DNA of 64,000 nt, from assembly GCA_022239325.1 (NCBI GenBank), contig JAKOGP010000005.1:62001-126000 (forward strand). Reading direction: 5' to 3'. The translations under genes were made by a program, and so were the position numbers. Source of the stretch: Flavobacteriaceae bacterium LSUCC0859 (lineage in GTDB: Bacteria; Bacteroidota; Bacteroidia; Flavobacteriales; Flavobacteriaceae). Shown one piece after another: positions 39,733 to 48,401 of the stretch. The stretch's first letter is position 1. Each line of letters starts with the position of its first letter. The notes beneath the pieces are model-generated. The model saw only the letters and a program-made list of their open reading frames with translations. It was not told the origin of the DNA and did not search any database.

Positions 39733-40554
39733 CTAGTCTAATTTTCTAAGCCAGATATTTCTAAAGCGCACCCTAGAGTTGTCTCCGTGGTCTTGAAGTA
39801 CTATAGGGGCGTCTCCGTGTGGCTCATTGGTAGGCCAACCAATATATTGAATAATGCCCTCAATAGTCACATGGTCTTGAATGAGTACCCCGTTGTGAAA
39901 GACCGTCAGGGTACCAGATTTGCTTTTTTGGCCCGCCTCATTAAACTCGGGGGCGTGAAATACTATGTCGTAGGCATTCCACTCTCCTGAAGGGACAGAT
40001 GCCATGGCCAGAGGTACTTTCTGCTTGTACAAGGCCCCTACTTGGCCATTGGTATAGGTAGGGTTGTCATTGTTATCTAAAATCTGTACCTCATAGCGCT
40101 GCTGGATAAAGACGCCAGAATTGGAACGGCTTTGGTTCTCCCCAATTATTTCTGCTGGAGAAGCCCATTCCAAGTGCAGCTGTATGCTGCCAAAGTTTTC
40201 TTTAGTCTGTAAGTTGCCTGTTCTATTGGCCACCGTCATGGAGCCATCTGCATTGAGGGCCCACTTTGCAGCAGTAGAATCTTGGGCCATATACCAGGCG
40301 TCTAAGTGGGTTCCGTCAAAGAGAACTATCGCGTCTGAAGGTGCGCTGCTAAAACCAGTGGCTGCAGCTCCTGGAGTTACTTTGGGTGGTACAGGCTCAT
40401 AGACCTCTGTCTCTTCTGGAGTGGTAGGTTCTGGGCCGGATCTTTCTATCTCTGGGACTACACCGCTATCTTCTGGGCATGGGGGGGTAGTGGGCTGACA
40501 AGCAAAGAGAAGAACACCAATAGCTGCGGCTAATATAAATTTGAGGGTTTTCAT
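39733..40554 (-). CDS. DUF1080 (3-keto-disaccharide hydrolase-type) lipoprotein
   Basis: A 273-residue lipoprotein (lipobox LLFACQ, Cys about residue 19) with a Pro/Thr/Glu-rich linker (about 20-65) and a DUF1080 domain (PF06439). The domain starts IVLFDGTHLDAWYMA and contains SIQLHLEWASP, NSGVFIQQRYEVQILDNNDN and a final GDNSRVRFRNIWLRKL. DUF1080 proteins are concanavalin-like and are now linked to cleavage of 3-keto-glycosides. It is the last gene of a minus-strand operon with a second DUF1080 gene, isomerase, dehydrogenase and permease genes. Secretion suggests action in the periplasm or at the surface. Confidence 0.9.
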   Translation of the reverse strand: MKTLKFILAAAIGVLLFACQPTTPPCPEDSGVVPEIERSGPEPTTPEETEVYEPVPPKVTPGAAATGFSSAPSDAIVLFDGTHLDAWYMAQDSTAAKWALNADGSMTVANRTGNLQTKENFGSIQLHLEWASPAEIIGENQSRSNSGVFIQQRYEVQILDNNDNPTYTNGQVGALYKQKVPLAMASVPSGEWNAYDIVFHAPEFNEAGQKSKSGTLTVFHNGVLIQDHVTIEGIIQYIGWPTNEPHGDAPIVLQDHGDNSRVRFRNIWLRKLD

Positions 40555-40632
40555 AAGGGGATCTTTGAAGTTAAAACCAAAGCAGCTCCCAAATGAGAGC
40601 CGCTTTAGACTATTAATTTAAGTAGGTAAAAT

Positions 40633-41382
40633 TTAAAGCTTTCTAATTTTGATATTTCTGAAGGCCACCTCGTCTCCGTGGTCTTGAACACCAATTTTTC
40701 CATTTCTAGTGGCACCAAAAGCGGCCCAGTCTGCAAATTTAGAATTGGCCTTCATGGCCTCCCACTCTGCGCCGTGTACCGGGAAACGAACCACTTCTTG
40801 GCCGTTGAGTTCTACAAAGCCCTCATTGGCATTATGGTCTATATGAATGAGGTAGTGGTTCCATTCTCCAGCAGGGTTAGGCTCCTGGGAAGGCGCTATC
40901 ATGTCGTACAAGGCGCCAGCTTTATGGGTGCCTTCGCCCACAAAAGAGTCTGGATGGCGCTCGTTGTCTAAGACTTGTATTTCAGGGCCAGACACATAGG
41001 GCTCTCCTAGTTCTGGGTCTTCTAACACGCCCCAAAAAATACCAGAATTGGCCCCTTCAGTCACCTTCCACTCTATAGAGAGTTCAAAGTTTTCAAAGGA
41101 TTGGTCGGTAACCAAGTTTAAGTTTTCACCTGCTTCTCTTTTTCGAGGATGAAAAACCATAGCCCCGTCTTCAATTTTCCAGGCGTCGGGTACTCCAGTT
41201 CCGTTATAAGCGTGCCAGCCACTAAAATCAGTACCGTCAAATAGGACCGTCCATTGTTGGGCGTCATTGGTTTCAGTAGCCAAACTTACCGCTTGGTCTT
41301 GTGTTTCTGCTGCTTTTTTTGGCGCCTCTTTACAGGCTCCTATACTTAGGCTTAAGGCCAAAAGGCCGATGATTTTTTTCAT
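40633..41382 (-). CDS. DUF1080 (3-keto-disaccharide hydrolase-type) lipoprotein
   Basis: A 249-residue lipoprotein (SIGACKE, Cys about 17) with a DUF1080 domain: TVLFDGTDFSGWHAYNGTGV, FELSIEWKVTEGANSGIFWG, PEIQVLDNERHPDSFVGEGT and a closing DEVAFRNIKIRKL. It is only distantly similar to its downstream neighbour, with a shorter linker. Two non-identical paralogues in one operon suggest different linkage or substrate preferences. Enzyme activity is inferred from family knowledge and neighbours. Confidence 0.92.
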   Translation of the reverse strand: MKKIIGLLALSLSIGACKEAPKKAAETQDQAVSLATETNDAQQWTVLFDGTDFSGWHAYNGTGVPDAWKIEDGAMVFHPRKREAGENLNLVTDQSFENFELSIEWKVTEGANSGIFWGVLEDPELGEPYVSGPEIQVLDNERHPDSFVGEGTHKAGALYDMIAPSQEPNPAGEWNHYLIHIDHNANEGFVELNGQEVVRFPVHGAEWEAMKANSKFADWAAFGATRNGKIGVQDHGDEVAFRNIKIRKL

Positions 41383-41420
41383 GTGATTTATTTTATTTGG
41401 TTTGTATTTCTTGAAATGAG

Positions 41421-42473
41421 TTAAATTCCCAAAATCTTTTGGAGTTGTTCGCGATCTGTGTCCTGACCCGCAAAATCGTCAAAAGTTTTTTGAGTGGCTT
41501 CTATAATGTGGTCTTGTATAAAGATAGCACCTTCTCTGGCCCCCTGCTCTGGAGACTTTATCACACATTCCCACTCCATAACCGCCCATACATCGCAGCC
41601 GTATTGGGTGAGCTTAGAAAAGATGGTTTTAAAGTCTATCTGACCGTCTCCAAGGGAGCGATAACGTCCTGCTCGGTCTTGCCAGTCGTTGTATCCGCCA
41701 AAGGCGCCCTTTTTACCAGTAGGATTAAATTCAGAGTCTTTCACGTGAAAGGCCTTAATAAACTCATGGTAATGGTCTATATAGGCAATATAATCTAACT
41801 GCTGTAGTACAAAGTGGCTGGGATCATAGAGAATGTTTACCCTTTTGTGGTTGCCCGTAGCGGCTAAAAAGCGCTCAAAGGTGTCTCCGTCATGCAGGTC
41901 TTCCCCCGGGTGAATTTCATAGCAAACGTCTACGCCCTGCTCGTCAAAATGGTTTAATATGGGCAACCAGCGCTTGGCCAGTTCCTCAAAACCCATTTCT
42001 ACAAGCCCCTTGGGGCGTTGTGGCCAGGGGTGCATGGTGTGCCACAAAAGCGCTCCGGAAAAAGTAGCGTGGGCTTTGAGACCCAAATGCTTAGAGGCTG
42101 TTGCGGCTTTTTTAACGGTTTCTATAGCCCATTGGGTACGTTCCTTAGGTTTCCCGTGCAAATGCGCAGGAGCAAAGGCGTCAAACATAGAGTCATAGGC
42201 TGGGTTTACCGCTACCAGCTGCCCTTGGAGGTGGGTAGAGAGTTCGGTAATCTCTAATCCGTAACTTCGAATGGTCCCTTGGAGCTCATCGCAATAGTCC
42301 TTGGAGGCGGCTGCCTGGTCTAAGTCTATGAGAAAAGACTCCCAAGTGGGAATTTGAATGCCTTTATACCCCAGATCTGCCGCCCACTGGCACATACCTT
42401 CTAGGCTGTTAAAAGGGGCTTTCCCGTCTACAAATTGGGCTAAAAATACGCCTGGCCCTTTGATTGTTTTCAT
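41421..42473 (-). CDS. sugar phosphate isomerase/epimerase-like TIM-barrel protein (cytoplasmic)
   Basis: A 350-residue xylose-isomerase-like TIM barrel (AP_endonuc_2 superfamily). Candidate metal ligands lie in VCYEIHPGEDLHDGDTF (Glu/His), NILYDPSHFVLQQLDYIAYI (Asp/His), FHVKDSEFNP (His/Asp) and VWAVMEWECVI (Glu). No signal peptide is present, in contrast to the paralogue at 45009-45989. It probably isomerises or epimerises a keto-sugar made by the neighbouring dehydrogenases. It lies between the DUF1080 and Gfo/Idh/MocA genes, same strand. Confidence 0.9.
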   Translation of the reverse strand: MKTIKGPGVFLAQFVDGKAPFNSLEGMCQWAADLGYKGIQIPTWESFLIDLDQAAASKDYCDELQGTIRSYGLEITELSTHLQGQLVAVNPAYDSMFDAFAPAHLHGKPKERTQWAIETVKKAATASKHLGLKAHATFSGALLWHTMHPWPQRPKGLVEMGFEELAKRWLPILNHFDEQGVDVCYEIHPGEDLHDGDTFERFLAATGNHKRVNILYDPSHFVLQQLDYIAYIDHYHEFIKAFHVKDSEFNPTGKKGAFGGYNDWQDRAGRYRSLGDGQIDFKTIFSKLTQYGCDVWAVMEWECVIKSPEQGAREGAIFIQDHIIEATQKTFDDFAGQDTDREQLQKILGI

Positions 42474-42517
42474 TTATTGCTATTTTTTTTGCAGGCAGCG
42501 CTGCAGTGAATTTTTTT

Positions 42518-43660
42518 TTATGATTGTTGGTCTAAATGTACCCAAACATTACCTCCTTTGTGAGAGGCCACGGCGCTTTCTATAAAATTTAAACCGCGAA
42601 GGCCGTCTGTTACCGTTGGATATTCTCCAGCGTCTGGGTTTTGGTTTCTAATAGCTCGGGCAACTCCAAGGTAAATATTGGCCATAGAGTCAAAAATACC
42701 CTCTGGGTGTCCCGGAGGTAATTTAGTGCCTCCCAAAGAAAGGGCACTGTTATACGCATGGCCTGGAGTGTATATTTGGAGAGCGGCGCCTTCTGAGAGC
42801 ACCTTTAGCACATTGGGGCTTTCCTGCTCCCATTTGAGTCCTTTTTTGTCTCCGTATATCGCAATAGATAGGCCATTTTCTTCTCCAGTAGCAATCTGAC
42901 TAGCTCTGAGAATTCCTTTAACCCCGCCTACCATTCTAAGGAAAATATTCCCGTCTATGTCCATCTGATTGTCTTCATAGAGGTAGTTCAGGTCTGCTAA
43001 TAGCGAGGCAATTCTCATGCCGGTGGTATACTCTACCATATTAAAGGCATGGGTGCCAATGTCTCCCATACAACAAGAAATACCAGCCTTACTAGCGTCT
43101 AAACGCCAGGTACTGCTGCGTTTTTCTTTGTCGTGAATAATGGGATTTATCCAACCCTGATAGTATTGAACGTCTATTTTTTGAATATTCCCCAATTCCC
43201 CATTTTTAATCATTTCTCGCATTTGGCGCACCATGGGGTAGCCAGTGTAGGTATGGGTAAGACCAAACACCAAGCCTTTTTCCTGCTGTAAGTCATAAAG
43301 AATTTTAGCCTCCTCGTAGGTGTTGGTCATAGGTTTTTCACAGATCACGTGAAAGCCGTTTTCTAACAGCTTTTTAGCCATGGGAAAGTGCAAGAAATTG
43401 GGCGTTAAAATAGAACAAACCTGAATGCGCTCTTCTGGCGGCAATTGAAGCTCCTCGCTAATTAAAGTGTCAAAATCTTTGTAAATTCTATTGGTGGGTA
43501 AGCCTATCTGTTTGGCAAAACCAATATTGTCTTCCCAAACCGGGTTAAATACCCCTCCAACAATCTCGTAGTTGTCATTAATAAAAGAGGCCACACGGTG
43601 TAATACTCCTATGAGGGAGTCTCCGCCGCCGCCTAAAATTCCAAGTCTAATTTTTTGCAT
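42518..43660 (-). CDS. Gfo/Idh/MocA family oxidoreductase
   Basis: A 380-residue NAD(P)-dependent sugar dehydrogenase. The Rossmann start is IRLGILGGGGDSLIGVLHRV, then ILTPNFLHFPMAKKLLENGF with HVICEKPMTNTYEEAK, the EKP catalytic Lys motif. GDIGTHAFNMVEYTTG carries the usual Asp-x-Gly-x-His. In this setting it most likely interconverts a glycoside or sugar and its 3-keto form. It is second in the minus-strand operon after the MFS gene. Confidence 0.93.
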   Translation of the reverse strand: MQKIRLGILGGGGDSLIGVLHRVASFINDNYEIVGGVFNPVWEDNIGFAKQIGLPTNRIYKDFDTLISEELQLPPEERIQVCSILTPNFLHFPMAKKLLENGFHVICEKPMTNTYEEAKILYDLQQEKGLVFGLTHTYTGYPMVRQMREMIKNGELGNIQKIDVQYYQGWINPIIHDKEKRSSTWRLDASKAGISCCMGDIGTHAFNMVEYTTGMRIASLLADLNYLYEDNQMDIDGNIFLRMVGGVKGILRASQIATGEENGLSIAIYGDKKGLKWEQESPNVLKVLSEGAALQIYTPGHAYNSALSLGGTKLPPGHPEGIFDSMANIYLGVARAIRNQNPDAGEYPTVTDGLRGLNFIESAVASHKGGNVWVHLDQQS

Positions 43661-43696
43661 GCTATTCTGTAAAATTGATGGTAAGCTAGGTCCTAG

Positions 43697-44923
43697 CTAA
43701 GATTTATATTCTATTTTTTCATTCTTAAAAAAGAGCGCAAACAAGAGCATTACCACAAAAGCAAAAGCTGCTGGTAAGGTCCAGATTTGGGCCCAATCGT
43801 GGCTGCCGTCTGCAGCGGCAAAATGGTCTGTAATTTGTCCGGCCACCCAAAAACCAATGAGCATTCCCACCCCGTAGGTGGCAAGGGTAATAAGCCCCTG
43901 CGCGGCAGACTTAAACTGCGCTCCCGCTTTAGTGTCCGTGTATATCTGTCCGGAAACAAAGAAAAAATCATAGCAAATTCCGTGCATGGCAATTCCTATA
44001 ATGAGCATAAAAGCACCTTCTCCTGCGTTTCCATAGGCAAACAGCAAATAGCGGAGCGTCCAAGCCAGCATACCCACCAAAATGGTTTTCTTAAAGCCAA
44101 ATTTCTTAAAAAATAAGGGCAATAACAACATAAAGAGCACCTCAGAGGCCTGTCCAATGGTCATTTTCCCTGTGGGATTGGCTACGCCTATTTCTGACAA
44201 GAAAGGATTGGCATTCTGATAGTAAAATGCCAGTGGAATACAAATGAGAACAGAGGCCAAAAAGAACATCAGAAAGTTTCTGTCGCCCAATAATTTTAGC
44301 GCGTCAAAACCTAAAATCTGACCCAAGGATTGCTTTTCTCCAGCCCTAGCCTGAGGGGGCGTAGCAGGAAGGCTAAAACTAAATAAGCCAAGCACTGCAG
44401 AGGCTATAGCCACCATGAGAAAGGTGTTCTTGAGCATGCCTGCGTCTGCGTTGGCTTGGGAATCCCATGCCAAAGCGCTTATGAGTAGTCCGGCTACAAT
44501 CCAGCCAATGGTTCCAAACACCCGCACCAAAGAAAATTCTTTGGCTGGGTCTTTCATTTGCTTAAAAGAAATAGAGTTCACCAAGGCCAAGGTGGGCATA
44601 TAAGCAATCATATAGCCCAACACATAGGGATAAAAAGTGTCAAAATCTGAGGCCCCGTACATCAGGTACATGAGCCCGGCTCCAAGGAGGTGGAGCACCC
44701 CTAAAATTCGCTCTGCGTTAAAGTAGCGGTCTGCGATAAGCCCAATGATAAATGGCGCAATAATGGCTCCCCAAGATTGGGTAGAAAAAGCCATGGCAGA
44801 CTCTGCACCGCTAGCATTTAAGTTTTTTCCCAGAAAAGTCCCCAGGGTCACAAACCAGCCGCCCCAAATAAAAAATTCTAGGAACATCATGGTGGAGAGT
44901 TGAATTTTAGTTAAAGTCTTCAT
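43697..44923 (-). CDS. MFS permease, nucleoside:H+ symporter type
   Basis: A 408-residue, 12-helix transporter of the Nuc_H_symport/NupG-like MFS family. It begins LTKIQLSTMMFLEFFIWGGW followed by FVTLGTFLGKNL, a hallmark of this group in Bacteroidota sugar loci. Between helices 6 and 7 there is a short cytoplasmic loop (PPQARAGEKQSLGQIL). The nucleoside label comes from enteric homologues; in this operon the cargo is more likely a sugar, keto-sugar or glycoside fragment. It is the first gene of the run 44923-39733, with 36-45 base gaps to the next genes. Confidence 0.9.
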   Translation of the reverse strand: MKTLTKIQLSTMMFLEFFIWGGWFVTLGTFLGKNLNASGAESAMAFSTQSWGAIIAPFIIGLIADRYFNAERILGVLHLLGAGLMYLMYGASDFDTFYPYVLGYMIAYMPTLALVNSISFKQMKDPAKEFSLVRVFGTIGWIVAGLLISALAWDSQANADAGMLKNTFLMVAIASAVLGLFSFSLPATPPQARAGEKQSLGQILGFDALKLLGDRNFLMFFLASVLICIPLAFYYQNANPFLSEIGVANPTGKMTIGQASEVLFMLLLPLFFKKFGFKKTILVGMLAWTLRYLLFAYGNAGEGAFMLIIGIAMHGICYDFFFVSGQIYTDTKAGAQFKSAAQGLITLATYGVGMLIGFWVAGQITDHFAAADGSHDWAQIWTLPAAFAFVVMLLFALFFKNEKIEYKS

Positions 44924-44954
44924 GTAGTTTTATTTAGTTTTTTTAGTGTTTCCT

Positions 44955-44978
44955 GGCCCTTTTTCAAAGGGCCGATGC
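44955..44978 (+). repeat. hairpin-GATGC element, copy 5 (intergenic)
   Basis: GGCCCTTT-TTC-AAAGGGCC followed by GATGC. Perfect 8-bp stem, the longest of the family. It lies between the MFS gene and the exported isomerase gene, both on the minus strand, and could also attenuate transcription between them. Confidence 0.75.
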
Positions 44979-45008
44979 AGCCCTTCTCAGCACCATCAAA
45001 AATATTTG

Positions 45009-45989
45009 TTATTGTAAAGAGATCAGTAAATCTCTGGTGGCTATAATTCCGGCTTCTTCAGACAGGCTACTGCCCTCGTACTCTACCCCAACAAATCCGG
45101 TATAACCAGCGTCTTTCACCAGCTGCATAATTCTAGGATAGTCGGTGTGAATTTCCTGGCCCTCAGCGTCAAAATCATGAGATTTAGCACTCACCGCTTT
45201 GGCATATGGCATAAGTTCTTCTACCCCTTTGTAGCGGTCGTATTCCTCTAAACAAGTGCGGCCACTAGCTCCCCATTCTGCGGTAATGCAAAAATTCCCA
45301 AAGTCTGGTAAGGTCCCTGCATTGGGCATATTTACGCCTTCCATCACCTGTACCAGCAGGGCCGCATTGGAAGACAAACCGCCATGGTTTTCCACAATCA
45401 CATTAATATTTTTAGTGGCTGCATAGGTAGCTAATGCCGTTAAACCATCTGTGGCTGCAGGCACCCAAACCGCCGGGTCATTAGAACCCGACAAGTTCAC
45501 TCGTACCGAGTGGCAGCCCAAGGCTGCTGCCGCGTCTACCCACTTGTAGTGGTTCTCCACGGCCTCTTGCCGCTCTGCAGCGTCTGTAGTGGCTAAATTA
45601 CCCTGACCATCAATCATAATGAGCAGGTTCTTCATTCCGTATTGCTCGCTGGCCGCCAGAGATTTACTCACAAAGTTGGCCATAGCTTCCGGAGAATAAT
45701 TGGCGGGCTGTAATTCCTTATTGTATAACTGGCTCACATACTCCAAGCCTTCAAAGCCCCATTCACTGGCTTTTTGGGCAAAAGAATAAGGGTCTACACC
45801 CTCTTCATTAATCATTTTATGCATAGACCACTGGGCCAAAGACAATTTAAAAGCAGGCGAAGGAGCCTGGGTTACAACCGGCTCTGTAGCGGCAGCTTGT
45901 TTTTTGTCTTTACAAGAAATTTGTGTAACAGATAAAATTCCTAAGGTGGCCATAAAAAGAGCCCGAGTAGATAAGTTTTTCAAAATCAT
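45009..45989 (-). CDS. exported sugar isomerase/epimerase-like TIM-barrel lipoprotein
   Basis: A 326-residue xylose-isomerase-like protein with an N-terminal signal and lipobox (LGILSVTQISCKDKK, Cys about residue 27), so it is a periplasmic lipoprotein. The barrel shows KLSLAQWSMHKMINEEGVDP, WGFEGLEYVSQLYN, INVIVENHGGLSSN and TGFVGVEYEGSSLS, with Glu/His candidates for a metal site. The frame extends to 46166, but that part crosses the divergent promoter region and the ATG of the GMC gene; ATG 45989 gives the signal peptide and is chosen. It heads the minus-strand sugar operon, divergent from the GMC dehydrogenase. Confidence 0.88.
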   Translation of the reverse strand: MILKNLSTRALFMATLGILSVTQISCKDKKQAAATEPVVTQAPSPAFKLSLAQWSMHKMINEEGVDPYSFAQKASEWGFEGLEYVSQLYNKELQPANYSPEAMANFVSKSLAASEQYGMKNLLIMIDGQGNLATTDAAERQEAVENHYKWVDAAAALGCHSVRVNLSGSNDPAVWVPAATDGLTALATYAATKNINVIVENHGGLSSNAALLVQVMEGVNMPNAGTLPDFGNFCITAEWGASGRTCLEEYDRYKGVEELMPYAKAVSAKSHDFDAEGQEIHTDYPRIMQLVKDAGYTGFVGVEYEGSSLSEEAGIIATRDLLISLQ

Positions 45990-46013
45990 AAGGTTGGTGT
46001 TTAAATTTAAGGT

Positions 46014-46064
46014 GAAAATGAGTGTAAACACTTGAAAACTACAACGTTTTCGCTTGTCATTTTC
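46014..46064. promoter_or_regulatory. nested inverted repeats in the divergent promoter region
   Basis: The 148-base gap between the divergent isomerase and GMC genes contains three inverted repeats. GAAAATGA (46014-46021) pairs with TCATTTTC (46057-46064). AGTGT-AA-ACACT lies at 46021-46032. GAAAAC (46034-46039) pairs with GTTTTC (46046-46051). Arms are perfect in all three. They are well placed for a LacI- or CRP-type regulator acting on both operons; the protein is not in the window. Confidence 0.55.
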
Positions 46065-46137
46065 TGAAAATAATGCGAATAAATGTAAAAAATTAATTCT
46101 ATATTTAGTCACATTTTTTAACAAACAATCACCAATC

Positions 46138-47847
46138 ATGAGCACCTTTTCTAATAATGATTCCAATGAGAACTACGACGCTATTGTAGTAGGAACGGGA
46201 ATTTCTGGTGGCTGGGCCGCCAAAGAGCTGTGTGAAAATGGCCTTAAAACCCTTGTGCTAGAGCGCGGGCGTATGGTTACACACATCAAAGATTATCCAA
46301 CAGCCAATTTGGACCCATGGGACCTACCTAACAATGGAGACCTAAGCCCCGAGCAAAAGGCCAGGCAGGAAAAACAGGCCCGTACCGGATATACCGTTCG
46401 TGCAGAAAGCAACCACTGGTTTGTAGACGACGTGACCCACCCATACAATGAAACCAAACGCTTTGACTGGATGCGTGGCTACCACGTAGGAGGCCGTTCC
46501 ATTATGTGGGGGCGCCATTCTTACCGCTGGTCGGACCTAGACTTTGAAGCCAACGCCAAAGATGGTGTGGCCGTAGACTGGCCGGTGCGCTACAAAGACA
46601 TTTCTCCTTGGTATGACAAAGTAGAGGAATACATAGGAGTGAGTGGTGAAAATTTAGGACTGGACCAATTGCCAGACGGTAAATTTGAGCCTATGATGCA
46701 GCTAAACTGTGTAGAACAACACTTTAGAGAGCAGGTGGCAGAGCAATTTGACGGCCGTGTGGTTACCGCCGGACGTGTGGCTCATATTACCTCAGATAAA
46801 AAATACGACGGACGTAGCAAATGTCAGTTTAGAAACCGCTGTATAAGAGGCTGTCCTTTTGGTGGCTACTTCTCTTCTGTGTCTTCTACCTTACCTGCTG
46901 CAGAGCTTACAGGAAACATGACCCTCAGACCCAACTCTATTGTTCATGAGGTGATATACGACGCCGCTACAGGCAAAGCCTCTGGCGTAAAAGTGATAGA
47001 CAGAGAAACCAAAGAAAGCATGGTATTTAACGCGAAGATAATCTTCCTTTGTGCTTCTGCCATGGCCTCTACTGCCATCCTCATGCAGTCTAAATCTGAG
47101 CGTTTCCCTAACGGATTAGGTAACGACTCTGACCAATTGGGAAGAAATATTATGGACCACCAATTGGGTGTGGGTGCCAGCGGAAAATTTGACGGCTTTG
47201 CAGACAAATACTACAAAGGCCGCAAGCCTAACGGAGTATACATCCCAAGGTTTAGAAATTTAGAAGGTGGGGAGAAAAAAGACTACTTACGTGGGTTCGG
47301 TTACCAAGGAGGTGCCTCTAGAGGTAACTGGGAAGACGCCATTGCAGAACACGCCTTTGGGAAAGAGCTCAAAGAAGCCGTGCTTAAGCCAGGCGGATGG
47401 ACCATGGGAATAATGGGCTTTGGAGAAGTACTACCGCACCCAGACAACCGCTTTACGCTAGACTACGAGCGTTTAGATGAGTGGGGCTTACCTACCCTAA
47501 CTTTTGACGCAGAGTTTAAAGAAAACGAATGGAAAATGCGAGAAGACATGAAAGCCCAGGCGGTAGCCATGTTGGAAAAAGCAGGTTTTAAAGAGGTAAA
47601 CGCCTACGACAACCCTGGTGCCCTAGGCCTCGGGATTCACGAGATGGGAACCGCCCGTATGGGAAGAGATCCGAAGACTTCTGTACTCAATGGACACAAT
47701 CAGGTGCATGCCTGTCCCAATGTGTTTGTGACAGATGGTTCTTTTATGACCTCAGCCTCTTGTGTGAACCCTTCACTGACGTATATGGCCTTTACGGCCA
47801 GGGCAGCCAATTTTGCTGCAGAACAACTTAAAAAAGGACTTTTATAA
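46138..47847 (+). CDS. GMC-family FAD dehydrogenase, large subunit (glycoside/glucose 3-dehydrogenase type)
   Basis: A 569-residue GMC oxidoreductase. FAD-binding is by YDAIVVGTGISGGWAAKELC (about residues 13-32), with HVGGRSIMWGRHSYRWSDLD next. A Cys cluster KCQFRNRCIRGCPFGG (about 227-242) resembles the iron-sulfur site of bacterial FAD glucose dehydrogenases. The catalytic His is in LGIHEMGTARMG (about 500), and VNPSLTYMAFTARAA closes. It oxidises a sugar hydroxyl, probably C3, passing electrons to the partner or a cytochrome. No own signal peptide is seen; export would rely on the Tat-type partner encoded next. The longer frame from 46054 lies in the promoter region. Confidence 0.93.
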   Translation: MSTFSNNDSNENYDAIVVGTGISGGWAAKELCENGLKTLVLERGRMVTHIKDYPTANLDPWDLPNNGDLSPEQKARQEKQARTGYTVRAESNHWFVDDVTHPYNETKRFDWMRGYHVGGRSIMWGRHSYRWSDLDFEANAKDGVAVDWPVRYKDISPWYDKVEEYIGVSGENLGLDQLPDGKFEPMMQLNCVEQHFREQVAEQFDGRVVTAGRVAHITSDKKYDGRSKCQFRNRCIRGCPFGGYFSSVSSTLPAAELTGNMTLRPNSIVHEVIYDAATGKASGVKVIDRETKESMVFNAKIIFLCASAMASTAILMQSKSERFPNGLGNDSDQLGRNIMDHQLGVGASGKFDGFADKYYKGRKPNGVYIPRFRNLEGGEKKDYLRGFGYQGGASRGNWEDAIAEHAFGKELKEAVLKPGGWTMGIMGFGEVLPHPDNRFTLDYERLDEWGLPTLTFDAEFKENEWKMREDMKAQAVAMLEKAGFKEVNAYDNPGALGLGIHEMGTARMGRDPKTSVLNGHNQVHACPNVFVTDGSFMTSASCVNPSLTYMAFTARAANFAAEQLKKGLL

Positions 47848-48401
47848 TGGAAAGAAGAAACGCCCTTAGAAATATAGGATTGGGATTGGGGTATATGGCG
47901 GCAACGCCAGCCATATTAAGCATGCTTCAGAGCTGTAACACAGCGGCAGAAGGGGCTTGGGCACCTCAGTTCTTTAGCCAAGAGCAGGCCAATTTTATCA
48001 CAACAGCGGTAGATGTTATCCTGCCTAAAACAGACACGCCTGGAGCCTCTGAGGTGAACGTACCCCAATTTATGGATCGTTTTTACGCAGAGATTCTCAC
48101 GGAAGCAGACCAAGAAAACCTTCAAGCTGGGCTAAAAGCCTTTATGGATACCGCCGGAGGAAGTGACGCAGCAGCAATTACTGCAGCCTTGGAGAAAACT
48201 CTAAAAGCCAAGCCAGAACCTGATGCAGAGCCAGATGCAGCCACTCAGTTTGCCTACGAACTCAGAGGCAAGGCCATCTGGTCTTACAAAACTTCTGAGT
48301 ACATAGGAGAAGAGGTATTGGTGTACCTGCCGGTACCCGGAGAATACCTTCCATGTGAAGATTTGGAAAGCCTTACGGGAGGCAAAGCTTACACCTTTTA
48401 A
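47847..48401 (+). CDS. gluconate 2-dehydrogenase subunit 3 family protein (Tat-type small subunit)
   Basis: A 184-residue small subunit (PF13618) of the GMC dehydrogenase. It starts MERRNALRNIGLGLGYMAAT, a twin-Arg-like signal, and has a Cys at about residue 31 (SMLQSC) that could be lipidated. The helical domain includes FFSQEQANFITTAVDVILPK then TDTPGASEVNVPQFMDRFYA, a family hallmark. It shares one base with the upstream stop (TAATGG), so translation is coupled. In related FAD glucose dehydrogenases this subunit is needed to carry the folded catalytic subunit through the Tat system. Confidence 0.93.
   Translation: MERRNALRNIGLGLGYMAATPAILSMLQSCNTAAEGAWAPQFFSQEQANFITTAVDVILPKTDTPGASEVNVPQFMDRFYAEILTEADQENLQAGLKAFMDTAGGSDAAAITAALEKTLKAKPEPDAEPDAATQFAYELRGKAIWSYKTSEYIGEEVLVYLPVPGEYLPCEDLESLTGGKAYTF

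Follow-up and report, generated by a model that had tools for sequence, protein, structure and literature searches.

The window analysed here is a 64,000-nucleotide stretch of the genome of Flavobacteriaceae bacterium LSUCC0859 (assembly GCA_022239325.1, contig JAKOGP010000005.1, positions 62,001 to 126,000), and the locus in question occupies positions 39,733 to 48,401 of it. Eight genes, each with a confirmed Pfam family, lie here together in two divergent arms, as the original prediction had described. Six minus-strand genes encode two DUF1080 proteins, a cytoplasmic TIM barrel (HYD), a Gfo/Idh/MocA oxidoreductase (Gfo), a permease of the MFS family and a second TIM barrel that is a predicted lipoprotein (TIMlipo). 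The plus-strand genes encode a GMC dehydrogenase and its partner of the Gluconate_2-dh3 family (subunit 3). We consider that the locus probably serves the use of small glycosides by oxidation, elimination, hydration and reduction. The source genome is 2.17 Mb in size and 99.76% complete. By names read from their sequences, yicC, gmk and nadD flank the locus to one side and nrdE (ribonucleotide reductase large chain) to the other. Inside the locus, open reading frames and Pfam matches gave neither a SusC/SusD pair nor a glycoside hydrolase, as had been predicted; elsewhere in the genome there are SusD-like genes (five matches, three above the cut-off) and one glycoside hydrolase gene of family GH3.

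The locus was placed in a known pathway of oxidation, elimination, hydration and reduction by the cytoplasmic TIM barrel (41421–42473, minus strand; PF01261). Along its whole length (residues 1–350), HYD matches with 551 bits PDB entry 8ro4, a structure deposited under the name '2-hydroxy-3-keto-glucal hydratase', and on this match the label of isomerase that the original prediction had given to this gene was rejected. Most of the annotated matches of the hydratase query carry the label sugar phosphate isomerase/epimerase, and genes so annotated in such loci may be hydratases or eliminases. Homologues 65–67% identical to HYD are encoded on plasmids of Pseudoalteromonas, Phyllobacterium, Croceicoccus and Ketogulonicigenium. 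At all four of these proteobacterial loci a Gfo/Idh gene adjoins the hydratase gene, as it does in the window (42518–43660, minus strand; Pfam Gfo/Idh), and its product is 37–42% identical to the window Gfo, which we propose to be a 3-keto-sugar reductase. At three of the four, a GMC/subunit-3 pair also lies next to these genes or within a few genes of them.

The catalytic GMC subunit (46138–47847, plus strand; Pfam GMC_oxred N and C) is the proposed glycoside 3-dehydrogenase. Its start is most likely ATG 46138, where the program-made list of reading frames had TTG 46054, and its gene shares one base with that of subunit 3. The protein aligned end to end with the large subunit of fructose dehydrogenase, with the three cysteines of the cluster region (C-x5-C-x3-C) and the C-terminal His and Asn in register. 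We take the cysteines to be ligands of an iron-sulphur cluster, as in fructose dehydrogenase, and the His and Asn presumably also keep the roles that they have in that enzyme. The identity is 55% over 563 residues to a Ketogulonicigenium protein located in the HYD-Gfo cluster of that plasmid, 46% to the Croceicoccus protein and 32% to the Pseudoalteromonas protein.

The closest solved relatives of the GMC subunit are fructose and glucose dehydrogenases. If the pair acted on a non-glycoside such as a free aldose, a polyol or inositol, the locus would be a rare-sugar or inositol pathway, with which the weak matches to the IolE model (HYD, 59 bits against a cut-off of 290) and the IolG model (34 bits against 355) would also agree. 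We regard this as very improbable, since the hydratase match is far stronger, DUF1080 genes stand within the same operon and at 77 of 80 related loci, and the HYD-Gfo-GMC set of Croceicoccus adjoins a GH3 gene and a TIM barrel with DUF6379.

Subunit 3 (47847–48401, plus strand) carries a twin-arginine (Tat) signal and Cys30, and is proposed to serve the GMC subunit both as export carrier and as anchor. R3, R4 and C30 were invariant in all 23 aligned sequences, i.e., the window and 22 of the 56 related loci that have the gene. TatC was also found in the genome, and therefore subunit 3 is likely to be exported by the Tat route and to take the GMC subunit with it. The structure model of subunit 3 was weak, with a mean predicted local distance difference test (pLDDT) score of 65, and its top fold match, the fructose dehydrogenase small subunit 9jqa_B, reached a Z of only 5.0. 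The genome has a second GMC gene (L144, 8733–11168), whose product is 44% identical to the Pseudoalteromonas type as compared with 31% to the GMC subunit of the window. Next to it is the gene of a short protein that has a Tat-like signal; we read this protein as an analogue of subunit 3, and it was not picked up by the subunit-3 query.

DUF1080a (39733–40554; PF06439, 131.8 bits) and DUF1080b (40633–41382; PF06439, 166.7 bits), both on the minus strand, belong to the 3-keto-disaccharide hydrolase family and are predicted lipoproteins, each with a signal peptide and a lipobox Cys as read by eye. Both keep the motifs N-S-G-x-F, E-x-Q-x-x-D and Q-D-H; the text of a paper on the DUF1080 active site (PMC9765024, in excerpt) names no residues. 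The nearest solved structures are 4qhz (253.6 bits) for DUF1080a, and 4jqt and 8v31 for DUF1080b. At least 95% of the 73 DUF1080b sequences aligned retain the lipobox Cys17, and the DUF1080a orthologues of four related loci (L021, L029, L037 and L065) carry a signal peptide that lacks the Cys. A third DUF1080 gene of the same genome (L081, 8981–11125), with a lipobox-like signal, forms a separate small locus with the adjoining gene of a Gfo/Idh protein that by eye has an apparent signal sequence.

A scan with the hydratase query gave at least 587 related stretches, of which the best 80 (L001–L080) were retained and are thus close relatives. Their hydratases are 84–89% identical to HYD, and the closest named matches came from Croceitalea and other Flavobacteriaceae; at least two of the 80 loci (L033 and L042) are from congeners. 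The same genes stand in conserved order across the 80 loci, so the gene set is more than chance, and the genome-context comparison suggested in the original prediction bore it out. When the open frames were clustered, the hydratase was found at 80 loci, DUF1080 at 77, GMC at 75, Gfo at 73, yicC at 70, TIMlipo at 66, the window-type MFS at 62 and subunit 3 at 56, all as lower bounds since many loci stop at contig ends. The relatives often hold more: the 113 GMC frames in 75 loci indicate a second GMC gene in many of them, and ASCH (64 loci), DinB (48), a TIM barrel with a Tat-like signal (33) and a second MFS (16) are further additions, so that the window carries a reduced version of the locus. 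The nucleoside-type MFS was unmatched at four Cellulophaga loci (L024, L030, L059 and L060), and at L024 another MFS occupies that position. A GH2 beta-galactosidase-like gene lies inside the Zobellia russellii locus (L014, 4206–7418), at most a hint of galactosides as the substrate.

Of the 12 genomes of the window's genus, 8 have the hydratase, among them all six, the source genome included, with a completeness of 90% or more. Besides the hydratase, each of the five others of these six (L093, L094, L095, L097 and L098) has GMC, subunit 3, TIMlipo, MFS, Gfo and one or more DUF1080; in L093, GMC and DUF1080b were each matched in two pieces, and no DUF1080a match was found in L097 and L098. Against the congener L092, the ratio of nonsynonymous to synonymous substitution rates (dN/dS) was 0.026 for the hydratase, 0.028 for Gfo, 0.033 for MFS, 0.047 for GMC, 0.061 for DUF1080a and 0.071 for subunit 3, with dS of these six computable genes already high at 1.0–2.6. 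Against L092, DUF1080b and TIMlipo gave saturated ratios, as did every matched gene against L097. The locus appears to be a unit conserved among Flavobacteriaceae for using glycosides without glycosidases, and congeners with genomes from about 1.7 to 4.1 Mb have retained it.

TIMlipo (45009–45989, minus strand; PF01261) is the least explained and most interesting part of the locus. Its start is most likely ATG 45989, where the list of reading frames had TTG 46166. The structure model had a mean pLDDT of 91.2, and its best fold match was 4ovx (Z 41.3, root-mean-square deviation 1.3 over 265; 284 bits in sequence), a xylose isomerase domain protein from Planctomyces limnophilus whose title names no tested function. 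The next fold matches were the isomerase Art22 (Z 28.6), C-glycoside eliminases (CGEs; 24–27) and 3-epimerases (24–26.5), and because these scores overlap, the fold does not choose between an eliminase and an epimerase. AtOGE, the eliminase of Agrobacterium tumefaciens, was absent among the best 50 fold matches listed for TIMlipo, which is no evidence against a likeness to it. By sequence, the matches below 4ovx were few and weak, and all were C-glycoside deglycosylation proteins. The Croceicoccus TIM protein next to DUF6379 also matched TIMlipo (E 2e-6). Orthology with the OGE-like protein of Pseudoalteromonas was considered and rejected, as no significant similarity was found (E 0.26).

The metal of AtOGE is bound by His132, Asp163, His189 and, weakly, Glu233, His134 is catalytic, and CGEs carry Glu in place of His132 (PMC10628242, in excerpt). 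In the alignment to DgpC1, E200 and H202 of TIMlipo fall on its Glu and His, the latter being the catalytic strand-5 His of TIM-type eliminases, and S267 falls on its His; at the position of S267, the CGD structure 8qrz has Gln. E200, H202, D229, S267, K269 and E303 were invariant in all 60 close homologues (the window and 59 of 67 frames from the 80 loci) and in all 20 distant ones, so that the metal-ligand His of strand 7, His189 in AtOGE, is a Ser throughout. Because this His is missing, we do not file TIMlipo as a CGE or OGE member, yet we propose that it works like one. Cys26, the predicted site of the lipid anchor, is present in all 60 sequences; 30 of them also have a twin-arginine motif, which the copy in the window lacks.

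The genomic company of TIMlipo was inspected in 20 neighbourhoods from 19 other genomes (two from G102, one of which is cut to 10 kb, and four from one genus). GMC was found in 10 of them, DUF1080 in 10, the window-type MFS in 8, subunit 3 in 7 and the window-type Gfo in 6, and hand-chosen control stretches on the same contigs gave 0 of 20 for every family. Five of the 20 contained a hydratase-matching protein, of which two were of hydratase grade (L119 and L120) and at least two others about 33% identical. GMC was near TIMlipo in 7 of 14 genera. Genome G091 (L107), where the hydratase was unmatched at 1e-60, has TIMlipo in divergent orientation to GMC and subunit 3. The link between TIMlipo and GMC is not exclusive, and half of the neighbourhoods are without GMC.

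TIMlipo could instead be a genuine epimerase or isomerase that acts on free 3-keto sugars outside the cytoplasm, with cleavage left to DUF1080 alone. The rank of Art22 directly after 4ovx and above the C-glycoside eliminases and 3-epimerases, a metal-site Ser unlike that of the eliminases and the lack of similarity to the Pseudoalteromonas OGE-like protein would suit such an enzyme. It is somewhat unlikely in view of the invariant Glu-x-His, whose His is catalytic in eliminases (PMC10628242, in excerpt), the C-glycoside deglycosylation proteins that make up all the sequence matches below 4ovx, weak as they are, the match to the Croceicoccus protein, and GMC in 10 of the 20 neighbourhoods, once where the hydratase match is absent. 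We propose that TIMlipo is an extracytoplasmic 3-keto-glycoside eliminase. Tentatively, it may represent an unrecognised family of such eliminases, distributed across Bacteroidota with a planctomycete relative (4ovx), found beside GMC 3-dehydrogenases, having an altered metal site (Glu-Asp-Ser-Glu versus Glu-Asp-His-Glu) and sharing the cleavage with DUF1080. If this is true, cells cleave outside the cytoplasm links that ordinary glycosidases may not, and TIMlipo is a named enzyme on which this can be tested.

The gene families, hydratase homology, synteny, export signals and conserved residues suggest the following route, whose reactions and compartments in this organism, like the transported species and the substrate, we infer. 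The GMC/subunit-3 pair, exported through the Tat signal of subunit 3, would oxidise the glycosyl C3 outside the cytoplasm. The lipid-anchored DUF1080 pair and, as proposed, TIMlipo would then break the glycosidic bond by beta-elimination, and the product would be 2-hydroxy-3-keto-glucal, or a free 3-keto-sugar if DUF1080 also adds water. The MFS permease (43697–44923, minus strand; PF03825 Nuc_H_symport, 385 bits), a member of the nucleoside:H+ symporter family, is the proposed importer of this cleaved sugar. In the cytoplasm, HYD would hydrate the glucal to the 3-keto-sugar and Gfo would reduce it to the hexose. The original prediction had envisaged oxidation and cleavage outside, import and reduction without a hydrolase; homology and signals support a glycosidase-free route of that kind, and the hydration step was missing from its scheme.

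The 3-keto-glycoside might also enter the cell intact and be cleaved there by an enzyme from another locus, in which case the exported proteins would act on other substrates. AtOGE is a 259-residue protein, and sugar ABC transporters flank HYD-Gfo in Phyllobacterium and Ketogulonicigenium, both of which would fit whole import. Within the locus, on the other hand, there is no cytoplasmic candidate for the cleavage, both DUF1080 proteins and TIMlipo have signal peptides, and TIM proteins with apparent signal peptides (by eye) adjoin the GMC pair in Pseudoalteromonas and Ketogulonicigenium. Whole import is thus improbable, and we prefer cleavage outside the cytoplasm.

Several observations weigh against the glycoside pathway as a whole. 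All matches of the locus to NCBIfam equivalog models are far below their cut-offs; the best one for Gfo is levoglucosan dehydrogenase, at 87.7 bits against 650. The family name 'hydrolase' does not fix the reaction of DUF1080, because one characterised member is an endo-xanthanase/lichenase (PMC9007349, in excerpt). No cytochrome gene was found in the locus, to which the search of this genome was confined, and some related loci are without one DUF1080 or have another MFS. The distribution of the hydratase is patchy: with the source genome counted in each set, it was found in 14 of 40 relatives and in 20 of 118 genomes evenly sampled from Bacteroidota with a completeness of 90% or more. TIMlipo also occurs in 20 of these 118, and the two proteins share only 10 genomes (odds ratio for their joint occurrence 8.8, p 0.00014, where p is only a guide as the genomes are related). 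Of these 10, three (own, G145 and G146) have the two genes at most about 10 kb apart, one has them some 46 kb apart and six have them on different contigs.

Joint control of the two arms, on which the original prediction depended, was supported in many relatives and weakly in the window. The palindrome ACTAYAACGTTRTAGT occurred exactly in 25 of 58 divergent intergenic regions (window included) and with one mismatch in one more, and 1160 single-base shuffled copies contained none with up to two mismatches; the pattern was derived from the same data in which it was counted. Across the whole loci it was found with up to two mismatches in 31 of 80 (30 exact), one in each and always directly upstream of GMC. 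The intergenic region of the window (45990–46137) has an eroded copy at 46038–46053 with three mismatches. The two closest congeners have two mismatches, four others had nothing better than five, and none of the 12 genus genomes contained an exact site. For the 14-base core, the source genome gave only sites with two mismatches, 14 of them as compared with 19 when the pattern was reversed as a control. Nor is the palindrome confined to this locus: G020 and G021, members of the family without the hydratase, have exact copies near other genes, by eye including SusC-like, GH31-like and GH13-like ones, and the exact site of G012 is on a different contig from its hydratase. Its shape suggests a LacI-type operator; the single LacI match in the source genome is next to a SusC/SusD pair. 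Nearer to the GMC start, the 8-mer TAAATGTA (either strand) was found in 49 of the 58 regions, and in several of them the arms TAAATGTA/TACATTTA stand about 20 bases apart; this second conserved element may belong to a promoter or an operator. Far from the locus, the window also encodes an indoleamine 2,3-dioxygenase family protein (278–1657; PF01231).

Among known systems, the operon of A. tumefaciens, which Kastner et al. reportedly followed up in 2024, is like the locus in having a GMC dehydrogenase with a Tat-signal partner, a TIM-barrel hydratase and a Gfo reductase. It encodes GlycDH (GMC), the Tat-signal partner, the eliminase OGE, HYD and Gfo, and elimination by OGE was shown, with preliminary evidence for hydration by HYD and reduction to glucose by Gfo (PMC10628242, in excerpt). 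Unlike that operon, the window has two DUF1080 lipoproteins, a lipid-anchored TIM barrel and an MFS permease, and no OGE-like protein was found in the locus. With the C-glycoside deglycosylation proteins (DgpB/C, DfgA/B and CGD), TIMlipo shares the TIM fold and the Glu-x-His pair; it differs from them by the Ser at the third metal position and the predicted lipid anchor, and no DUF6379 partner was found in the locus. In the fructose and glucose dehydrogenase complexes a cytochrome subunit belongs to the enzyme, unlike the pair in the window, which has no such gene beside it in the locus; none was seen either among the extra genes of the relatives checked by Pfam, with one representative each.

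The lactose 3-dehydrogenase LacABC of Caulobacter has three components, of which we take LacB to be a cytochrome, whereas the locus has two dehydrogenase genes. DUF1080 genes lie near LacABC and lactose phenotypes are known there, and in Bacteroides the DUF1080 protein BT2157 acts on 3-ketotrehalose (PMC9007349, in excerpt). The BT2157–BT2159 pathway is like the locus in using a DUF1080 protein, there on a 3-keto-disaccharide, and unlike it in the first step, carried out by the NCBIfam families BT_2158 and BT_2159, named glycoside and disaccharide 3-dehydrogenase, against whose models the window Gfo scored 34.3 and 19.5 bits (cut-offs 750 and 650). Without a SusC/SusD pair, the locus also differs from a polysaccharide utilisation locus of that type. 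No published description of this Flavobacteriaceae locus was recognised among the matches listed from the open-licence literature, which does not show its absence in print. The novelty implied by the original prediction was not supported, since closely similar gene sets are present in Agrobacterium and Caulobacter, and paired DUF1080 genes are not new, the Caulobacter cluster already having two. We see in the locus a lipoprotein-based version of a pathway type that is already known.

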